A stretch of DNA of 24,451 nucleotides from a virus, in the IMG/VR virus record IMGVR_UViG_3300042509_001135, positions 1 to 24,451 of that record; one strand, 5' to 3'. The position numbers and the translations under genes were made by a program. Below, one piece after another: positions 7,825-20,085 of this stretch. The first letter of the stretch is position 1; the number at the start of each line of letters is the position of its first letter. The notes below the pieces were generated by a model. That model did no database searches and was not told the origin of the DNA. It saw only the letters and a list, made by a program, of their open reading frames with translations.

Positions 7825-7869
7825 GCCACTCATGCGCTGCGCCCTGTAGCGCCCTTCAGGAGATACGCC

Positions 7870-8127
7870 ATGAAACGAACACATATCAAAGCATTTAACG
7901 AACTGAAGAAACTTGGTTGCCCTGTATTCGTTCACCACTCTGCGCCGGATTACTTCGATATCAGCGCAGAGGAAAGCAACAGTTACCAGTGGGCCGACTA
8001 CTACTCAGGCGACTACAACGAAGGCTGGATTTTTGGCACTCACCCGACACTCGACGCTGTACTCCGCAAGCATGGCCTGTTAGCTGAATGGGTGAACCCT
8101 GCTCACCTGCGAGTGTACGAAGCCTGA
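7870..8127 (+). CDS. Unknown 85-aa phage protein
   Basis: The first gene of the rightward small-gene cluster, with a strong AGGAG Shine-Dalgarno 7 bases before the ATG. The protein (MKRTHIKAFNELKKLGCPVF...) has an N-terminal helix, a Tyr/Asp-rich centre (YQWADYYSGDYNEGWIFG) and a C-terminal helix (LDAVLRKHGLLAEW). The composition is that of a small soluble acidic protein. I have seen similar small proteins in phages without known function. A stable hairpin follows its stop. Confidence 0.75.
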   Translation: MKRTHIKAFNELKKLGCPVFVHHSAPDYFDISAEESNSYQWADYYSGDYNEGWIFGTHPTLDAVLRKHGLLAEWVNPAHLRVYEA

Positions 8128-8138
8128 TAACTCGACCC

Positions 8139-8157
8139 GCCCGCTTCGGCGGGCTTT
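8139..8157 (+). terminator. Tetraloop hairpin, possible weak terminator
   Basis: GCCCGC, loop TTCG and GCGGGC form a 6-bp G/C stem closed by a stable tetraloop, followed by only TTT. It lies between two co-directional genes, so it may be partial termination, mRNA protection or a translation-spacing element. A near twin is at 8587-8602. Confidence 0.5.
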
Positions 8158-8171
8158 ACTGGACCCCGACC

Positions 8172-8399
8172 ATGCAGACCTACACCGCCGCCGAATTACT
8201 GAGCATTTCCCGAACCGCGCAAAAACTGCGCGATATCACCAGCGAACTTGCCGCCCGCGATTCAAAAGAATATCGGGATGCTTGCCAGCTTGAAGATATC
8301 GCCCACCGCTTACGCCAAGCCGCCGATGTTATGCAATACGACCCCGAAGGGGCTGAACTCATGATGATGAGCCTGATTCGCCCACTACAGACCGCCTGA
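8172..8399 (+). CDS. Unknown 75-aa helical protein
   Basis: Starts at ATG 8172, directly after the leader GGACCCCGACC, which also precedes the gene at 9004. An in-frame upstream start at 8088 would overlap the preceding gene and cross the hairpin, so it is unlikely. The protein (MQTYTAAELLSISRTAQKL...) is mostly helical, with ITSELAARDSKEYRDACQLEDIAHRL and a Met-rich C-terminal helix. No family is recognised. Part of a co-directional series of tiny genes. Confidence 0.7.
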   Translation: MQTYTAAELLSISRTAQKLRDITSELAARDSKEYRDACQLEDIAHRLRQAADVMQYDPEGAELMMMSLIRPLQTA

Positions 8400-8413
8400 A
8401 AGGAAACCCGACT

Positions 8414-8578
8414 ATGAACGACTACCAAGCAAACGGATTCGCTAGCCGCCGCGATTATCTGGAATCACTCGCCGAGGAATACCCGCGCGATGCAGTTTTC
8501 GCGCTGGCATCAATACTCGGACCCAACGAGGACTTCGACGGGCTGATTACCAGCTTAGAAGATGAATTCGACTACTAA
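8414..8578 (+). CDS. Unknown 54-aa acidic protein
   Basis: A short frame from ATG 8414 to TAA 8576-8578, preceded by AGGAAACCCGACT, which supplies a Shine-Dalgarno (AGGA) and resembles the local GGACCCCGACC leaders. The product begins MNDYQANGFASRRDYLESL and ends LITSLEDEFDY: acidic, helical and soluble. No function can be assigned. The spacing between the flanking genes and the leader support it being real. Confidence 0.65.
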   Translation: MNDYQANGFASRRDYLESLAEEYPRDAVFALASILGPNEDFDGLITSLEDEFDY

Positions 8579-8586
8579 CCCGACCC

Positions 8587-8607
8587 GCCCGCGCAAGCGG
8601 GCATTTT
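8587..8607 (+). terminator. Second tetraloop hairpin, possible weak terminator
   Basis: GCCCGC, loop GCAA (a GNRA tetraloop) and GCGGGC form a 6-bp stem identical to the one at 8139-8154 but with a different stable loop. It is followed by ATTTT. Both hairpins are preceded by CGACCC, showing a duplicated intercistronic element. Confidence 0.5.
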
Positions 8608-8621
8608 CTGGAGTTACTGCC

Positions 8622-8783
8622 ATGCCGACCATTAAACAAACCATGACCACCGCGACGATTTTTCTAGCTGGCTTTTGCGCCGCTGCCTGGGCTTACGGCC
8701 AAGTGGACCACGCTTCCGGCCTGATCTGCACCGCGACCAGCTTTTTTATGGCTGCACTATCCCACGCACAACCCGACATTTGA
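8622..8783 (+). CDS. Small membrane protein, 53 aa
   Basis: Starts at ATG 8622 with GGAG 8 bases upstream; the frame is open further upstream but that part runs through the hairpin and the previous gene. The product is hydrophobic, with two likely membrane segments: ATIFLAGFCAAAWAYG (about 11-26) and ASGLICTATSFFMAAL (about 31-46), joined by a short QVDH turn. It looks like a tiny two-pass inner-membrane protein. A holin is conceivable by shape only; there is no neighbouring lysin, so I do not call it one. Confidence 0.6.
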   Translation: MPTIKQTMTTATIFLAGFCAAAWAYGQVDHASGLICTATSFFMAALSHAQPDI

Positions 8784-8792
8784 GGCCGACCT

Positions 8793-8990
8793 ATGCGAAA
8801 CGACCCTTACTTCACCCGCGCCCGCTTTCCTTCACTTTGCGCCGAAACGGGCCGCAAGATTGAAAAAGGCGACGAAATAGCCTACTACCCGCGCGACCGC
8901 AAGGTTTACCACGCCGAGAGCAAGCAAGCCGCCGAACTGCGCGGACTGCAATTCAACGCCGCTTTCAATATGCCCGATGCTAACTGGTAA
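8793..8990 (+). CDS. Conserved small phage protein, 65 aa
   Basis: The product (MRNDPYFTRARFPSLCAETG...) contains CAETGRKIEKGDEIAYYPRDRKVYH, a pattern I recognise from small proteins widespread in phages and plasmids whose role is unknown. One Cys with nearby His might be a remnant of a treble-clef-like fold. A GAGG Shine-Dalgarno lies in the leader GAGGCCGACCT. It begins 9 bases after the previous stop. Confidence 0.75.
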   Translation: MRNDPYFTRARFPSLCAETGRKIEKGDEIAYYPRDRKVYHAESKQAAELRGLQFNAAFNMPDANW

Positions 8991-9003
8991 AGGACCCCGA
9001 CCA

Positions 9004-9240
9004 ATGCTCATCAACTACCACGCCAAAAACGACAAACAAGGTTGGCAGCTTGTTTGCAGCTTCCCGATTGACTCCGACCAATGGGGCGAAACCGACCGCA
9101 GCTTCATTGACGAGATGCTCAAGCAAGGCCAGCGCGTTATTACCTGCGGTTGGAATATGTGGGAAATCGCGCCCGACTTGGAACCGATCAAACCCTACCG
9201 CCCGATCAATCGGGGCCAGCAACCACTCGACCTAGATTAA
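9004..9240 (+). CDS. Unknown 78-aa protein
   Basis: Starts at ATG 9004 after the leader AAAGGACCCCGACCA, almost the same as that before the gene at 8172. The product (MLINYHAKNDKQGWQLVCSF...) is a soluble mixed alpha/beta protein with Trp and Cys residues (VITCGWNMWEI) and a polar C-terminus. No family recognised. It is the last gene before the leader type switches to AGGAGATCAGAC. Confidence 0.7.
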   Translation: MLINYHAKNDKQGWQLVCSFPIDSDQWGETDRSFIDEMLKQGQRVITCGWNMWEIAPDLEPIKPYRPINRGQQPLDLD

Positions 9241-9256
9241 CCAGGAGATCAGACCC

Positions 9257-9574
9257 ATGAAAACCACGCTATCCGTTTACGACTTCCGCGATGCCTTCCA
9301 CCGCTGCGGCAGAGGAGATCAGTTTTCCTATGACGCGCTCGGCATTATTTACGATTGGCTAGAGGAAAATGACCCAGATTTTGAACTCGACGTTATCGGC
9401 CTATGTTGCGACCTTGCCGAGGATGAGCCACGCGGCATCGCCGAGGATTATTCCATCGACGTTAGCGGCATGGATGACCAGGAAACCGAACAAGAGGTTT
9501 TGAACTACTTGCACGATCAGACCACCGTTTTAGGACAAACGAAAGCCGGAACAATAATTTATGTTCAATTTTAA
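9257..9574 (+). CDS. Conserved acidic phage/plasmid protein, 105 aa
   Basis: The first gene with the AGGAGATCAGAC leader. The product (MKTTLSVYDFRDAFHRCGRG...) carries FRDAFHRCGRGDQFSYDALGIIYDWLEE and FELDVIGLCCDLAEDE. This matches a small acidic protein family that I know from phages and plasmids (FxxAFxRxGRxNQFSYE...ELDVIALCC), function unknown. The protein is strongly acidic throughout. It may bind a host protein, but nothing in the sequence says which. Confidence 0.8.
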   Translation: MKTTLSVYDFRDAFHRCGRGDQFSYDALGIIYDWLEENDPDFELDVIGLCCDLAEDEPRGIAEDYSIDVSGMDDQETEQEVLNYLHDQTTVLGQTKAGTIIYVQF

Positions 9575-9586
9575 AAGGTTATTAAA

Positions 9587-9784
9587 ATGAAAATTACCAT
9601 TCGCGCCGACAAAAATTATGGGGTCCTGACCTACTACCCCGCTTGCCCCGCCGCTGAGATATTCGCCCGCATCGCCGGAACTAAGACGCTCACAACCCAC
9701 GCGCTGCGAGATATTGCCGCACTTGGATACGAGATTGAGATCGAGCAAACCGCGCCAAAAACATTCCGCGCACTAGCCGCCTAA
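9587..9784 (+). CDS. Unknown 65-aa protein with atypical leader
   Basis: Begins MKITIRADKNYGVLTYYP and contains FARIAGTKTLTTHALRDIAALGYEIEIEQ, a beta-strand then helix then strand arrangement. It is the only gene of the block between 9257 and 11773 without the common leader. Instead it has an AT-rich AAAAGGTTATTAAA before the ATG, which suggests that it arrived separately or lost the element. No known family. Confidence 0.7.
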   Translation: MKITIRADKNYGVLTYYPACPAAEIFARIAGTKTLTTHALRDIAALGYEIEIEQTAPKTFRALAA

Positions 9785-9799
9785 CAGGAGATCAGACCC

Positions 9800-10099
9800 A
9801 TGAATAAATTTTCAATCGCGCCGTGGAAATCGGCTATCGCTTTCGACCGCGCATACATCCGCAACATTAAAGACGCGCAAGGCGAAATCATCGCGCAAAT
9901 TCCAGACTGGGAAGATGGACTAGAGGAAACCACCGCCAACGCCCGATTAATGGCCGCCGCGCCTGATTTGTTGGCCGCACTCCGCGACTTGCTCGACGAG
10001 GCCGATTTAAATGAGGTTGACGAGTACACCGCGCCCAAAGTAGAAGCCGCCCGAGCCGCTATCGCGCGCGCGACAGGCGATCAGACCATCCCCGCTTAA
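9800..10099 (+). CDS. Conserved phage protein with NARLMAAAPDLL motif, 99 aa
   Basis: Contains NARLMAAAPDLLAALRDLL (about 47-65), the signature of a very common small phage protein family of unknown function, followed by EARAAIARATG. Its last residues, ATGDQTIPA, are encoded by a one-mismatch copy of the block's leader (10075-10086), so the C-terminus seems to have been extended by read-in of an old leader. The normal leader is at 9786. Confidence 0.8.
   Translation: MNKFSIAPWKSAIAFDRAYIRNIKDAQGEIIAQIPDWEDGLEETTANARLMAAAPDLLAALRDLLDEADLNEVDEYTAPKVEAARAAIARATGDQTIPA
10075..10086 (+). repeat. Decayed leader copy inside coding sequence
   Basis: AGGCGATCAGAC differs from the common leader by one base. 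It lies 26 bases upstream of an intact copy and inside the 3' end of the gene at 9800-10099. The two tandem copies suggest a former tiny gene or a recombination scar. Confidence 0.7.
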
Positions 10100-10114
10100 T
10101 AGGAGATCAGACCG

Positions 10115-10285
10115 ATGTTTACTTTTTACTACAACGGAATGTATATCAACGGCAGCTTTTCCCGCCCTGACTGTTATGTAACCGACGATACATTTCATTT
10201 TTTAGGCCGCAGATTCAGCAGCACACACGCCGCCAAGATAGCAATCACCCGCGCCCGCAAAGCCGGAATACCCGCCAGCCGATAG
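10115..10285 (+). CDS. Unknown 56-aa protein
   Basis: ATG 10115 follows an intact AGGAGATCAGAC leader, and the TAG stop is the first part of the next leader. The product starts MFTFYYNGMYINGSFSRPDC and ends with a basic helix (THAAKIAITRARKAGIPASR). The basic C-terminus could contact nucleic acid. No family is recognised. Leaders on both sides support it strongly. Confidence 0.75.
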   Translation: MFTFYYNGMYINGSFSRPDCYVTDDTFHFLGRRFSSTHAAKIAITRARKAGIPASR

Positions 10286-10297
10286 GAGATCAGACCG

Positions 10298-10645
10298 ATG
10301 GAATTCAATTACATAACCAGCACAGGTGTTGCACTCGACGATTTTGGCAACGAAGTGCGCGACGAAAGTGGCGCAGTAGTTATCGTGCCAGAGGATGAAC
10401 GAGCAAATTACGACATCGCATTTAGGTCAGACGGTAGCGAACAAAAGGCCGTGACGCTGCCCGATGGTGACTACAAAGCAGAGGACTATTGCAATGTATG
10501 GATAGACGTTCGCGGGTTTACCGTAAATCTGAAAACGACTGACGAGGGAATAGTCGTTGACGTTTTCAACGCCGAGCAACTACGGACAGAGCCGTATGCC
10601 GAGCCGGTAGCATCGACTTACGCATTCGATCATGAATTAGCCTGA
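10298..10645 (+). CDS. Unknown 115-aa acidic protein
   Basis: A strongly acidic, beta-rich protein (MEFNYITSTGVALDDFGNEV...), with DGDYKAEDYCNVWIDVRGF and TVNLKTTDEGIVVDVFNAEQL resembling strands of a small sandwich or OB-like fold. I recognise similar small phage proteins but no function. Common leader upstream, next leader starting 1 base after its TGA. Confidence 0.75.
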   Translation: MEFNYITSTGVALDDFGNEVRDESGAVVIVPEDERANYDIAFRSDGSEQKAVTLPDGDYKAEDYCNVWIDVRGFTVNLKTTDEGIVVDVFNAEQLRTEPYAEPVASTYAFDHELA

Positions 10646-10661
10646 TAGGAGATCAGACGAT

Positions 10662-10805
10662 ATGAACATCACAGAAAAAGAACTGCGCGACATGGCCGCC
10701 TATATTGCCGACTATCTCGCCGAGGAAAACGTTGCCGAGGTTGATTCTTGGCTTATCTGCCGCGCGATGGATGCTTATCTCGGCGGCGCAGCCGAGCAGA
10801 ACTAA
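10662..10805 (+). CDS. Unknown 47-aa helical protein
   Basis: Read from ATG 10662 after the leader at 10647, here with a GAT spacer, to TAA 10803-10805. The product (MNITEKELRDMAAYIADYL...) is acidic and helical: AAYIADYLAEENVAEVDSWLICRAMDAYL. The length and leader support a true gene. A helical hairpin binding a host protein is only a guess. Confidence 0.7.
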   Translation: MNITEKELRDMAAYIADYLAEENVAEVDSWLICRAMDAYLGGAAEQN

Positions 10806-10819
10806 TAGGAGATCAGACG

Positions 10820-10993
10820 ATGAAATATCAAGTGCTTTTTGATGGCGAAAATGTTTGGCAAATAGACGGACAGCCGCATTATTTCGACAGCTTTGAAGAA
10901 GCCGGAAAAGAACTAGACGAGCATTTCGCGGACATGGATGACGCTGGCATGGACTATGAACCAGCGGATTACAGAATTGAAATCGTGAACTAA
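10820..10993 (+). CDS. Unknown 57-aa acidic protein
   Basis: Starts at ATG 10820, one base after AGGAGATCAGAC; the frame is open upstream but reads through the previous gene. The product (MKYQVLFDGENVWQIDGQP...) has two beta strands then an acidic helix (FEEAGKELDEHFADMDDAG) and a last strand (YRIEIVN). Very acidic, DNA-mimic-like in charge, but no match to a known inhibitor is claimed. Confidence 0.75.
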   Translation: MKYQVLFDGENVWQIDGQPHYFDSFEEAGKELDEHFADMDDAGMDYEPADYRIEIVN

Positions 10994-11007
10994 CAGGAGA
11001 TCAGACG

Positions 11008-11181
11008 ATGACCAACTATCAGAAAGCCATTGAAACGTACGAGCGCGGCGGCCAATACGCCGTTTACACCGCCGTTCTATCAGGCGAATTGATGGCCGAT
11101 TGCTGGAGTCAATGCCGCCCTTGTGAGGATGAAACGCCGCACGAAGATGGCACTTGCTTAGTGTGCGGAACCAACAACTAA
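11008..11181 (+). CDS. Small zinc-ribbon-like protein, 57 aa
   Basis: Begins at ATG 11008 after the leader at 10995. The C-terminal half has CRPC (C36, C39) and CLVC (C50, C53), with an extra C32, which would form a zinc knuckle or ribbon. The N-terminal half is helical (YQKAIETYERGGQYAVYTAVLSGEL). It may be a zinc-bound adaptor or nucleic-acid contact protein; the partner is unknown. Confidence 0.75.
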   Translation: MTNYQKAIETYERGGQYAVYTAVLSGELMADCWSQCRPCEDETPHEDGTCLVCGTNN

Positions 11182-11195
11182 CAGGAGATCAGACG

Positions 11196-11372
11196 ATGAA
11201 TCAGCTTATCGAAAATTATGCAAACCATCTCGTTGACAGCATGGACATGAGTTCGCTTTGCCAATTTGCCTACGAGCAAATTTGCGAGAACCTAGAACAA
11301 ATGGATGAAAACGAACTGATGGACAGCATACAAGAGTGCGCCCCGCACCTGTTAGATGACGCCAAACAATAG
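11196..11372 (+). CDS. Conserved small helical phage protein, 58 aa
   Basis: The product (MNQLIENYANHLVDSMDMSS...) has LVDSMDMSSLCQFAYEQICENL followed by an acidic tail (ENELMDSIQECAPHLLDD). I recognise this pattern from small proteins in many phages, role unknown. Common leader at 11183; the TAG stop overlaps the next leader. Confidence 0.8.
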   Translation: MNQLIENYANHLVDSMDMSSLCQFAYEQICENLEQMDENELMDSIQECAPHLLDDAKQ

Positions 11373-11384
11373 GAGATCAGACCC

Positions 11385-11555
11385 ATGATTCTTGACGCAT
11401 ACGTTATTGAAAATGAAACAGACCCTAGTTTGCTTTGGTGCAACGCATGGGGTTGGACAGATGGAGATGACTTCGACGTTTTCAGTTATGACGAAAAAGA
11501 GGAATTCACTTTACCGATAGAGGGTAAGTGGATGCAGCTAGTTGTTACCGCTTAA
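11385..11555 (+). CDS. Unknown 56-aa acidic protein
   Basis: From ATG 11385, after the leader at 11371 with a CC spacer, to TAA 11553-11555. The product (MILDAYVIENETDPSLLWCN...) is very acidic and beta-rich with several Trp residues (LLWCNAWGWTDGDDF). No family is recognised. Confidence 0.7.
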   Translation: MILDAYVIENETDPSLLWCNAWGWTDGDDFDVFSYDEKEEFTLPIEGKWMQLVVTA

Positions 11556-11569
11556 CAGGAGATCAGACG

Positions 11570-11773
11570 ATGAACACCTACAACGTCACAATCAAAGCAG
11601 AAGTTTATAAAACCATAACAGTCGATGCAGACAATGAAGATGCAGCCTACATCGCCGCGCATGAACTGTTTACGGTCGCGCCCGATTTTGTGTGGCCTGA
11701 GAGTTACAACGAAGAAACCATCGGGATTGAACTGATAGAAGATCAGACGGTGCTATCCTGCGCCCATGACTAG
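11570..11773 (+). CDS. Conserved small phage protein, 67 aa
   Basis: The last gene with an intact leader (11557). The product (MNTYNVTIKAEVYKTITVDA...) shows the pattern NVTIKAEVYKTITVDADNEDAAYIAAHELF, shared with small phage proteins of strand-strand-helix type and unknown function. Its C-terminal LIEDQTVLSCAHD runs through a one-mismatch leader copy (11737-11748). It overlaps the next gene by 8 bases. Confidence 0.75.
   Translation: MNTYNVTIKAEVYKTITVDADNEDAAYIAAHELFTVAPDFVWPESYNEETIGIELIEDQTVLSCAHD
11737..11752 (+). repeat. Decayed leader followed by a GTG remnant
   Basis: AGAAGATCAGAC differs by one base from the common leader, and the expected ATG position holds GTG (11750-11752), followed by just six more codons and TAG. 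It looks like the wreck of an eleventh cassette, now read in frame by the gene at 11570. Confidence 0.65.
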
Positions 11774-11966
11774 CAAAAAGATGTTCACCCTGTACCTGAT
11801 CGAGAACGACGAGGGTCAGGTCAGGGTGATAACCGACTACTCTGGAGAAGGCGACCGCTGCCTTGCCCTGGGTGTTGAAATCATGCAGTCGCTTGCCATC
11901 ATCCAGCCCCATACAGGCGGCGGCCTATCCTTCGTAATGCCGAGCCAGACCGATGTTGAGCATTGA
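11766..11966 (+). CDS. Unknown 66-aa protein, last of the rightward cluster
   Basis: Starts at ATG 11766, overlapping the preceding gene by 8 bases. The product (MTSKKMFTLYLIENDEGQVR...) has beta-prone KMFTLYLIENDEGQVRVITDY followed by a helix (CLALGVEIMQSLAII). There is no clear Shine-Dalgarno of its own apart from the decayed leader about 20 bases upstream. Its last 42 bases overlap the 3' end of the primase-like gene on the other strand. Confidence 0.6.
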   Translation: MTSKKMFTLYLIENDEGQVRVITDYSGEGDRCLALGVEIMQSLAIIQPHTGGGLSFVMPSQTDVEH

Positions 11967-12779
11967 CTGGGTCAGGCTTTGGCTAAAATCGAACAATCCA
12001 ACCCGACGATGGTAGTCGTTAGCATCCTCGCCTACACGATCAGACATCCAAACCGGCCAGCCTATTTCCTCTGCCGCCCGCTGCCCTGTGCCGGACTCGT
12101 CGTTATCTGCAATGACCAACCCCTGCTCTAGCCCCTCTGCTACGCGCACCATGTTGCCAGCCGAGAAGCAAACATGAAGTGTGTACCTGCGCTTCAACTG
12201 CTTCATTGCCGCACGAACGGACAGCGCAGTAGCGTACCCCTCGCACACAATGTTTACGCCCTTGTTATCGAAGGTAAAGGTCGCGCCGCTTGTGCGCTGG
12301 CCGTACAAAAACTTCTTCGTGCCATCCTCCCATATCTGCTGGACCCCGACCAGGCTCTTGCCGCATCTCATGGGTATGAGAAGGACAGGCTTGTTCTCGA
12401 TCCGAAGAACGCTACCCTGCTCATCAGGAAACCCCTTGCTTGCAAGGTATTCGTGGGTGCTGTACCCGCTATCGTTCAGCATACGCACCGCTTTGCCGAC
12501 AGCCTCGGTCGCCAGCTTCTTACGCTGCTGATCTGCCTGCGCCTGACTGATGACGATGGATCGTATATCCAAGTTCAGACGGTCGCTTGAGTCAGGCTTC
12601 CACAAACTGGTGACGGTAGATAGTGCATGGTTCTGCACGAACCCATGCGTACCCATGTATTTGCACGCGCCGTTGCGCTTGCGCGGGTGATCCTCTGTTG
12701 GATACCGCTTCCACACGCCGATCTCTGGCAGCTCGTTAATGATGATGCCGTGTGATCTGGCAAATTGAATAAAGTCCAT
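11925..12779 (-). CDS. DNA primase-like protein with Toprim domain
   Basis: A 284-residue protein likely making primers with the neighbouring helicase. The Toprim core is visible: NIVCEGYATALSVRAAM (E180), GLVIADNDESGTG (D225 and D227), and EDANDY (252-257). N-terminal residues 1-65 contain KYMGTHGFVQNHALSTVTSLW, as in the start of phage and plasmid-type Toprim primases, but no zinc-binding Cys set is present. I placed the start at ATG 12779 within TGATG, overlapping the helicase stop; a TTG 3 bases upstream is less likely. The helicase is separate rather than fused, unlike T7 gp4. Confidence 0.8.
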   Translation of the reverse strand: MDFIQFARSHGIIINELPEIGVWKRYPTEDHPRKRNGACKYMGTHGFVQNHALSTVTSLWKPDSSDRLNLDIRSIVISQAQADQQRKKLATEAVGKAVRMLNDSGYSTHEYLASKGFPDEQGSVLRIENKPVLLIPMRCGKSLVGVQQIWEDGTKKFLYGQRTSGATFTFDNKGVNIVCEGYATALSVRAAMKQLKRRYTLHVCFSAGNMVRVAEGLEQGLVIADNDESGTGQRAAEEIGWPVWMSDRVGEDANDYHRRVGLFDFSQSLTQSMLNIGLARHYEG

Positions 12780-18057: not shown

Positions 18058-18930
18058 ATGAAACTCACCAACAAGCACGGTCTGCCTGACACATTCATCA
18101 ACGTTATCCAACGGCCTACTTATAGCCGTGGCAACAGCGAGATATCTGTTACGGAGATCCTATCACCGCCGCAGCTAGTACTCCTGCGCCGCCGTCATGC
18201 CGATGATATCGAAGTCGATGCGGCAGATCAGGTCTGGAGTCTGTTCGGGTCAGCAGTCCACAACATCCTACAACACGGCAAGGATGAGCATCACGTTGTC
18301 GAGGAACGCCTGTTCACCACGTTCGAAGGCTGGAGTATCAGCGGCGCTATTGACCTGCAAACCTTTCAGCCAGATGGGTCGGTCATCATCTCTGACTACA
18401 AGGTGACATCTGCCTGGGCAGTCCAGCAGCAGAAGACCGAGTGGATAGATCAGTTGAACCTGTACGCATGGCTGATCGAACGGACAAAGGCGCTGCCGGT
18501 TACTGGCCTACAGATCATCGGCATCGTCCGCGACTGGAGCCGCAGAGAAGCAGCCATCAAAGACACCTACCCGCAGGCACCGATTGTCACCATCGACATC
18601 CCGCTCTGGGACGCGGAGACACGCGAGCAGTTCGTGAAGGGTCGTCTGACCCTGCACAACGAAGCTAACTTCTCGGCAGTCAGTGGTGAGATGCCGCAGT
18701 GTACGCCCGATGAAATGTGGGAAAAGCCCACCACCTACGCTGTAATGAAGGAAGGTGGCAAGAGAGCGAAACGGGTATTTGAATCACTTGACCAAGCCGA
18801 AGCGTTCCGGGCTGAACAAACGGGAGCGCACCACATTGAAACGAGAGAAGGCGGCAGGACTCGATGCGAATCTTTCTGTCAGGTCGCTCCATTTTGTCAG
18901 CAGTACAAATCCTACAAGGAGGCAGTATGA
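18058..18930 (+). CDS. RecB/Cas4-like PD-(D/E)XK nuclease with Fe-S cysteines
   Basis: A 290-residue exonuclease-type protein. GSAVHNILQ (H68), SGAIDLQ (D98), IISDYKV (D113, K115) and QLNLYAWL (Q132, Y136) are motifs I-IV of the RecB/Cas4 nuclease fold. C215 with C270, C274 and C280 (RCESFCQVAPFC) form a likely 4Fe-4S site as in Cas4 and AddB. It probably resects DNA ends to feed the ERF annealing protein two genes downstream. GGGGAG supplies the Shine-Dalgarno. No cas1/cas2 or CRISPR array lies in the window. Confidence 0.85.
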   Translation: MKLTNKHGLPDTFINVIQRPTYSRGNSEISVTEILSPPQLVLLRRRHADDIEVDAADQVWSLFGSAVHNILQHGKDEHHVVEERLFTTFEGWSISGAIDLQTFQPDGSVIISDYKVTSAWAVQQQKTEWIDQLNLYAWLIERTKALPVTGLQIIGIVRDWSRREAAIKDTYPQAPIVTIDIPLWDAETREQFVKGRLTLHNEANFSAVSGEMPQCTPDEMWEKPTTYAVMKEGGKRAKRVFESLDQAEAFRAEQTGAHHIETREGGRTRCESFCQVAPFCQQYKSYKEAV

Positions 18931-19088: not shown

Positions 19089-19796
19089 ATGAAAAACATC
19101 GCCACGGCACTGGTAAAGGCGCAGCGGGAGTTTGGCCCTGCGCTGAAGACCAGCACCAACCCACACTTCCGCAGCAAGTATGCGGATCTCTCGGCTTGCA
19201 TTGAAGCGGTCATCGATGCGCTCAACAACAACGGCATCTACTTGATGCAGCTCACGGAAGAACACGAAGCTGGTGTGAAGGTAAGCACTACGTTCATCCA
19301 TGAGTCAGGTGAACAACTGTCAGGCGGGTCACTGTTCATGCCTGCTAGCAAGCACGATGCACAGGGCTTTGCTAGCGCACTTTCTTATGCCCGCAGATAC
19401 AGCCTGATGGCTGCCTGCTCTATCGCCCCGGAGGATGACGATGGCAATTCCGCAACGGCTTCAGCGCCACCTAAAGCGGTACCTAAACCGCCGCCTGCGC
19501 CTACGCCTACGCCTGCGCCTACGCCTGCGGTGCCAAAGAAAATATCGGGCAAGGATAGCGAGTGGCAACTTAGCGTATCGGCGCAACCAGACACGAAGTT
19601 TGAAGACTGGCTCGCTGTCGTGGTCGAGGCTACAGTTACAGCGCTTGACACGGCAGAGTCCAAAGATGCGGTGATGAACATCTGGCGCACCAACGCAAAC
19701 ATCTTCAAGCAGATCGAACAACAGGACGAAGCGGCATACAAGGAACTAGTCGCCACGTTCTCAACTTACAAGGAGGCATTCGGCGATGGCAAATAA
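19089..19796 (+). CDS. erf: ERF-family single-strand annealing protein
   Basis: A 235-residue recombinase. The ERF domain covers about 1-121, with NPHFRSKYADLSA (24-36) and the hallmark DAQGFASALSYARRYSLMAACSIAPEDDDGN (90-120). A Pro/Thr/Ala linker (about 127-150) leads to a helical C-terminal domain. It anneals complementary single strands, likely with the nuclease at 18058 and the SSB-like protein whose start it overlaps by 11 bases. A GGAGAAG Shine-Dalgarno lies before the ATG. Confidence 0.92.
   Translation: MKNIATALVKAQREFGPALKTSTNPHFRSKYADLSACIEAVIDALNNNGIYLMQLTEEHEAGVKVSTTFIHESGEQLSGGSLFMPASKHDAQGFASALSYARRYSLMAACSIAPEDDDGNSATASAPPKAVPKPPPAPTPTPAPTPAVPKKISGKDSEWQLSVSAQPDTKFEDWLAVVVEATVTALDTAESKDAVMNIWRTNANIFKQIEQQDEAAYKELVATFSTYKEAFGDGK
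19494..19529 (+). repeat. Hexanucleotide tract CCTRCG x6 in erf linker
   Basis: Six tandem CCTGCG/CCTACG units encode the alternating Pro-Ala/Pro-Thr linker of the ERF protein. Such a tract can change length by slippage in steps of two residues without frameshift. Confidence 0.85.
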
Positions 19797-20085
19797 ATTC
19801 CCCAACAGCGGGCGGCTGAACTACAGCCAGCGCAAGGTACACCCCAAGTCACCTGACCTGTACGGTGACATCACGTTCGACCGTGCGTTCCTACGCAGCG
19901 CGATGGAAGAAGCAGATGGCGACGAGATCACCATCCGGCTGGACGCATGGCAGAACGATGGTCAGTACGGCACGTTCTTCCAGTTGAAGGTGAACACATG
20001 GAAGAAGACAGAGCCTGGACTAGCGCAGGCACCGAAGCCGCCAGCACCACCGGCTCCTGCTGACGACAGTGATATTCCTTTCTGA
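19786..20085 (+). CDS. Single-stranded DNA-binding-like protein
   Basis: A 99-residue protein starting MANKFPNSGRLNYSQRKVHP. The centre (YGDITFDRAFLRSAMEEADGDEITIRLDAWQ) and TFFQLKVNTWKK are compatible with an OB fold, though not a standard EcoSSB. A Pro/Ala linker leads to the acidic tail DDSDIPF, the hallmark SSB tip that recruits partner proteins. Its start overlaps erf by 11 bases, fitting an annealing-plus-SSB pair. The SSB call rests mainly on the tail and context. Confidence 0.65.
   Translation: MANKFPNSGRLNYSQRKVHPKSPDLYGDITFDRAFLRSAMEEADGDEITIRLDAWQNDGQYGTFFQLKVNTWKKTEPGLAQAPKPPAPPAPADDSDIPF

Follow-up and report, generated by a model that had tools for sequence, protein, structure and literature searches.

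A repeated ribosome-binding leader as the probable joint of a shuffled array of small gene cassettes in tailed phages

The origin of the joints between the modules of mosaic phage genomes is debated, with explanations invoking either illegitimate recombination or short boundary sequences common to both partners, and has long remained open because most joints carry no recognisable sequence. In this work, we analyzed a window of 24,451 bases (the whole stretch examined, i.e. positions 1 to 24,451 of the virus record IMGVR_UViG_3300042509_001135) in which a 12-base leader, AGGAGATCAGAC, precedes ten small genes. Several described systems are close to this locus. The start-associated sequence (SAS) of Cluster K mycobacteriophages is 5′-GGGATAGGAGCCC, with 17-bp inverted repeats (ESAS) upstream of about half of the SAS sites (PMC3203893), and the start-associated repeat of Cluster EF Microbacterium phages is 5′-GGGAAAGGACCCC (PMC7302621). 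In lambdoid phages, short conserved boundary sequences were proposed as recombination foci; a paper discussing this proposal calls such sequences unidentifiable at most mosaic borders (PMC3029335). T4-type phages carry PeSL promoter/stem-loop cassettes, as outlined by a citing paper (Arbiol 2010; Comeau 2014, cited in PMC4503421), and the stoperators of L5 and Cluster A mycobacteriophages are asymmetric repeats lying in one orientation relative to transcription (PMC9283540). Our analysis suggests, with a probability of about 0.65, that AGGAGATCAGAC is both a ribosome-binding leader and the standard joint of a cassette array shuffled by short-homology exchange, copies of its core within genes being mostly scars.

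The window contains ten exact copies of AGGAGATCAGAC within positions 9243-11568 (starts at 9243, 9786, 10101, 10284, 10647, 10807, 10995, 11183, 11371 and 11557), all on the plus strand and none in reverse, compared to 0.0026 copies expected under a first-order Markov model, which rules out a chance origin. Every copy is followed by an ATG after 1-3 nt, and the ATCAGAC continuation is found at no other AGGAG..ATG start of the window. A preliminary description, made from the sequence alone, had claimed that the ten genes are unrelated and their leader invariant; indeed, family clustering assigns these genes (47-115 aa) to ten different families. These ten protein families and the unrelated flanks 5′ of the leader also rule out the duplication of a single ancestral cassette. 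Besides the exact copies, degenerate ones start at 10075 (within the end of a gene) and 11737, and the bare 8-mer GATCAGAC also occurs on the leader strand at 9515, 10079, 11741, 12038, 12869 and 14758.

A scan of viral contigs for the leader followed by ATG revealed numerous contigs bearing arrays of 2-9 copies, with all copies of an array on a single strand in each case; its single-copy matches are probably mostly due to chance, since a 15-base pattern must match often in so large a collection. Bacterial genomes gave only two single matches and plasmids none. What looked like a repeated leader in the marine phage 023Pt_psg01 proved to be a glycine-rich coding repeat. Independently of the leader, 80 relatives were selected by their primase and more were added via two outgroup primases; after removal of near-duplicates, 67 and later 97 array regions were compared. 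This group consists of freshwater-type tailed phages of ~60 kb with the array in an accessory region beside the primase, and its nearest named relatives are, by terminase, Phage DSL-LC04 and, by primase, MW202426 together with Acidovorax phage AP1. The exact 12-mer was found at 289 Shine-Dalgarno (SD) starts in the first set of relatives, before deduplication, and is absent from more than a dozen loci among the primase-selected relatives. Outgroup loci devoid of it carry looser variants (GGAGATYASAC, GGAGAGTGAAC) or another repeated leader, AAAGGGGATTGCC. A single gene family can bear either leader according to lineage (family 10, for example, carries AAAGGGGATTGCC in outgroup lineages), and the leader therefore belongs to the array rather than to the gene.

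The preliminary description had considered its proposals incompatible with leaders varying freely outside AGGAG and with a constant cassette content. Neither was observed: in close relatives the leader does not vary freely outside AGGAG, and both content and order of the cassettes are swapped, leader-bearing families being found in almost every order and combination across the compared array regions. When scored only where both genes occur in both genomes, adjacency across a leader is retained in 41, 43, 29 and 16% of cases at primase identities of 90-100, 80-90, 70-80 and 60-70%, respectively, compared to 78, 83, 65 and 39% for boundaries without leader in the same genomes and identity bins. 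A leader gene and the leaderless gene that follows it remain joined in 72-100% of cases, which argues that the movable unit extends from leader to leader rather than being the single gene.

The joints themselves coincide with the leader. In a comparison of flanks that required an exact leader (whose identity of 1.00 is thus by construction), copies of a same gene placed after different upstream genes show background identity before the leader (~0.25, with a slight rise over the stop codon) and about 0.90 after it; reciprocally, when a same upstream gene is followed by different genes, identity drops to background within ~6 nt past the leader. The base preceding the leader best follows the upstream family and the spacer the downstream one. 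In nearly all cases, the stop codon of the preceding gene abuts the leader, by a TAG overlap, a one-base overlap or a TAA plus one base. Ends of blastn homology blocks are 9-12 times commoner at leaders than at random positions, and a left end lies at 73% of leaders; for ordinary gene starts the share is 29%, and for random positions 6%. Exchanged segments thus end at this short shared sequence more often than at other gene borders. Among the interpretations of the preliminary description, that of a recombination handle gains support from the swapped content and order and from these breakpoints, whereas a regulator common to all cassettes remains hypothetical.

The leader could alternatively be a pure start-associated sequence, fixed by translation or by a common RNA-binding factor of the phage or host; breakpoints would then fall at starts solely because all other recombinants are dead. 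The position, spacing and strand of the leader are those of the repeats of Cluster K and EF phages, it is exact even across divergent relatives, and the enrichment of its core concerns the sense (mRNA) strand, all of which agree with this explanation. However, plain starts are breakpoints far less often than leaders (29% versus 73%), plain boundaries are retained twice as often as leader boundaries, and joints at GATCAGAC devoid of SD or start codon (see below) are left unaccounted for. Furthermore, RNA structure prediction revealed nothing special at the leader, which is not unusually unpaired, and no regulator or complementary RNA was identified. Taken as a whole, we regard this explanation as unlikely, though still a serious contender. 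An extended pairing of GATC with the 3′ end of 16S rRNA (AGGA plus GAUC, with a bulge) was also considered and dropped, since related lineages use GATT, GAGTG or similar sequences.

The array and the neighbouring features of the window are given below. Leaders 1 to 10 are exact matches; the basis of the other assignments (open reading frame, ORF; clustering; comparison) is given in brackets.

9243-9254, plus strand: leader 1 (AGGAGATCAGAC)
9257-9574, plus strand: cassette 1 gene, 105 aa, family 18, with GATCAGAC inside at 9515 (ORF, family clustering)
9587-9784, plus strand: leaderless array gene, 65 aa, family 0 (ORF, family clustering)
9786-9797, plus strand: leader 2
9800-10099, plus strand: cassette 2 gene, 99 aa, phrog_1273 (unknown function)
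10101-10112, plus strand: leader 3
10115-10285, plus strand: cassette 3 gene, 56 aa, whose TAG stop overlaps leader 4 (ORF, family clustering)
10284-10295, plus strand: leader 4
10298-10645, plus strand: cassette 4 gene, 115 aa (ORF, family clustering)
10647-10658, plus strand: leader 5
10662-10805, plus strand: cassette 5 gene, 47 aa, family 9, 13 members (family clustering)
10807-10818, plus strand: leader 6
10820-10993, plus strand: cassette 6 gene, 57 aa (ORF, family clustering)
10995-11006, plus strand: leader 7
11008-11181, plus strand: cassette 7 gene, 57 aa (ORF, family clustering)
11183-11194, plus strand: leader 8
11196-11372, plus strand: cassette 8 gene, 58 aa, DUF7326 (PF24012), whose stop overlaps leader 9
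11371-11382, plus strand: leader 9
11385-11555, plus strand: cassette 9 gene, 56 aa (ORF, family clustering)
11557-11568, plus strand: leader 10
11570-11773, plus strand: cassette 10 gene, 67 aa, weak DpnD/PcfM-like match below the Pfam cut-off
11737-11748, plus strand: degenerate leader AGAAGATCAGAC, joint with the conserved terminal module
11766-11966, plus strand: conserved terminal ORF, without leader (ORF, comparison with relatives)
12038-12045, plus strand: GATCAGAC antisense to the primase gene (conservation among relatives)
18058-18930, plus strand: exonuclease (phrog_2139)
19089-19796, plus strand: Erf-like single-stranded DNA annealing protein (phrog_155)

Terminase and portal genes lie on the minus strand, as does a block encoding primase, helicase and ParB-like proteins; the exonuclease and Erf-type genes share the plus strand with the array. 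Family 0 (57 members) is widespread in relatives at the left border of the array. The terminal ORF, which overlaps the 3′ end of the primase gene, is present in nearly all relatives, with differing genes joined before it. Upstream of it (module 11740-11966) lies TGCTATCCTGCGCCCATG, an extended -10-like string whose closeness to the ATG would allow a leaderless transcript. Gene-internal mosaics also occur: family 47 combines the N-terminus of the 115-aa cassette 4 protein with the body of family 50, as seen by comparing L142 (family 47), L174 (family 50) and the window. To the left of the array (upstream block 7858-9240), small genes are preceded by a second type of leader, GACCCCGACCA, before ATG at 8162-8175 and 8993-9005; in the array regions of relatives, CCGACCAT has 92 copies compared to 1 on the opposite strand.

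Copies of the core are not restricted to gene starts. Within array genes, ATCAGACG is the most over-represented 8-mer, with 114 copies compared to 7.4 expected (sd 2.6) from synonymous-codon shuffling, and 19 compared to 1.4 when one gene per family is kept. These copies occupy all three frames of the sense strand, the opposite strand carrying 2. No excess was found in leaderless relatives, and counts outside the array of near-complete genomes are about the chance level, which rules out a Chi-like genome-wide signal. The sequence TCAGACGG resembles the core of the Neisseria DNA uptake sequence, a likeness that was set aside since its occurrence is limited to the array. Of the internal copies, about a third are located at most 40 nt from the 3′ end of the gene, and several of these sites show homology on one side only. 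Furthermore, read-through tails, GDQT and LSCAHD among them, are common to proteins of unrelated genes: the end of cassette 2 encodes GDQT by read-through of the degenerate leader at 10075-10086, and the tail of the cassette 10 protein, EDQTVLSCAHD, results from read-through of the motif at 11741. Joints at GATCAGAC without SD were also found, at a promoter-like module and at the conserved terminal module. The former, of ~75 bp with TTGACG, is present in L137, L143, L146 and others, flanked by GATCAGAC without SD; the same flanks surround another module, whose perfect palindrome (GGTAACGTTACC or GGAAACGTTTCC) resembles operators of the LacI family. We infer that most gene-internal copies of ATCAGACG are scars left where joining fused or truncated genes or gave them a new tail.

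Several points weigh against a joint that leaves scars. Among the 37 internal motif sites, 19 align on both sides with homologues devoid of the motif, which is compatible with decayed scars and also with a motif under selection. The remaining internal copies and the antisense copy in the primase gene are not explained by fresh scars. The latter, GATCAGAC, is present in 41 of 51 leader-bearing relatives and in none of 12 without exact leader, and cannot be a scar since it sits in a colinear conserved protein; it is nevertheless weak evidence for a further signal, three other primase oligomers being equally conserved. It should also be emphasized that the genomes are related, so that neither the pair counts nor the Fisher values are independent, that single-linkage families merge certain chimeric genes, and that breakpoints at starts partly reflect survivorship, non-viable joints never being seen. 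Finally, the joint (~12-20 bp) is shorter than the minimal pairing segment of 23-27 bp that Red beta needs for efficient pairing (PMC3945230), suggesting that events are rare and selected or that another factor helps.

A further reading takes ATCAGACG as a dedicated strand-specific signal of the array, acting either through some phage factor that binds it or as a local hot spot of recombination. If so, it would be selected in leaders, inside genes and antisense to the primase gene, and would actively drive and align cassette exchange between co-infecting phages; we consider this rather improbable. Alternatively, the motif could be an asymmetric stoperator-like DNA site repeated along the array, to which a phage repressor would bind so as to stop initiation or elongation in a single orientation. 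Such a site would account for numerous asymmetric copies that share one orientation to transcription and lie near starts as well as within genes, whatever the frame, an arrangement resembling that of L5 stoperators (PMC9283540), and for the conserved antisense primase copy. However, copies are limited to ~3-6 kb with background levels elsewhere, no cognate repressor was identified and the cassette joints are left unaccounted for, making such a site very improbable; a role in prophage immunity is also unlikely, since no integrase was found in 13 records. The primase gene may contain another nucleic-acid signal, as AAGCCTGA is kept at synonymous sites, at both places, in 46 of 51 leader-bearing primases; GTCAGGCTT lies twice antisense to this gene (11971-11979 and 12591-12599). 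The motif copies in the helicase and ParB genes (12869 and 14758) are unlinked to leader presence and likely reflect coincidence or protein constraint.

If the leader is indeed the joint, the movable unit would run from one leader to the next and usually include one gene, sometimes two. As the leader provides the SD, the spacing to ATG and, in many cases, the AG of the preceding TAG stop, a newly joined unit would be expressed at once. Exchange would occur by short-homology annealing at the shared leader, most likely through the phage's own Erf and exonuclease; selection would retain the joints that yield expression, and the identity of the leader would be maintained by both translation and its use as a joint. 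Annealing is suggested by the exonuclease and Erf genes of the window, by the RecA-independent recombination of short or diverged homologies that phage Rad52-like proteins, including Erf, carry out (PMC3945230), and by the lack of any match to tyrosine or serine recombinase families (PF00589 and PF00239) in the 13 records, 12 of which are 52-67 kb long. The Erf-like protein is thus a candidate engine of cassette shuffling. The small ORF that follows its gene (19786-20085) has an acidic DDSDIPF tail and, by eye, resembles a single-strand DNA-binding protein. An integron-like system, in which a site-specific recombinase would act on the leader, shares the unit structure and permutation of cassette arrays; given the lack of these recombinase families and a site of merely 12 bp without inverted repeats, it appears scarcely credible.

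Cassette proteins are small and acidic (median pI of 4.5 compared to 6.1 in neighbours). Their family matches are DUF7326 and DUF6878 (both of unknown function), NinX of phage P22 and the weak DpnD/PcfM-like one, and no convincing defence-related match was found among them. They may plausibly form a store of host-interaction proteins that serve in host take-over or counter-defence, and the leader offers a simple tag for locating such reservoirs of small accessory phage proteins. More generally, this array would be a rare case in which the joint of phage gene shuffling is visible and testable: the 12-mer marks most joints in dozens of genomes and ordinary starts serve as an internal control, so that the boundary-joint idea can be tested directly.

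Compared to known systems, the integron combination of dedicated integrase and attC-like site was not found in the 13 records, and the leader differs from stoperators by its restriction to the array, instead of a genome-wide spread, and by being part of a ribosome-binding site. As far as the citing paper describes them, PeSL cassettes similarly place a repeated regulatory element between small genes of a hypervariable, shuffled region, but the element is here a 12-nt ribosome-binding leader rather than a promoter plus stem-loop. The closest likeness is with SAS: both are short, asymmetric, conserved repeats combining an SD core with invariant bases outside the pairing with 16S rRNA, located a few nt before ATG, in a single orientation, upstream of many unrelated small non-structural genes. 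However, AGGAGATCAGAC matches neither GGGATAGGAGCCC nor GGGAAAGGACCCC and belongs to another phage group, and no ESAS-like inverted repeat was found upstream, flank identity being at background up to the leader. Above all, it coincides with exchange breakpoints and its core is also found at gene-internal and SD-less joints, raising the possibility that SAS and other repeated start leaders serve as exchange joints in addition to translation signals. In the open-access literature, which was the scope of our search, no paper was found that combines the start-associated and boundary-sequence ideas. With the lambdoid boundary sequences, the leader shares the nature of a short sequence common to module borders at which homologous recombination could act, and NinX, from the nin region of P22, is among the cassette families; the difference is that, here, one countable 12-mer is common to most joints of the array.
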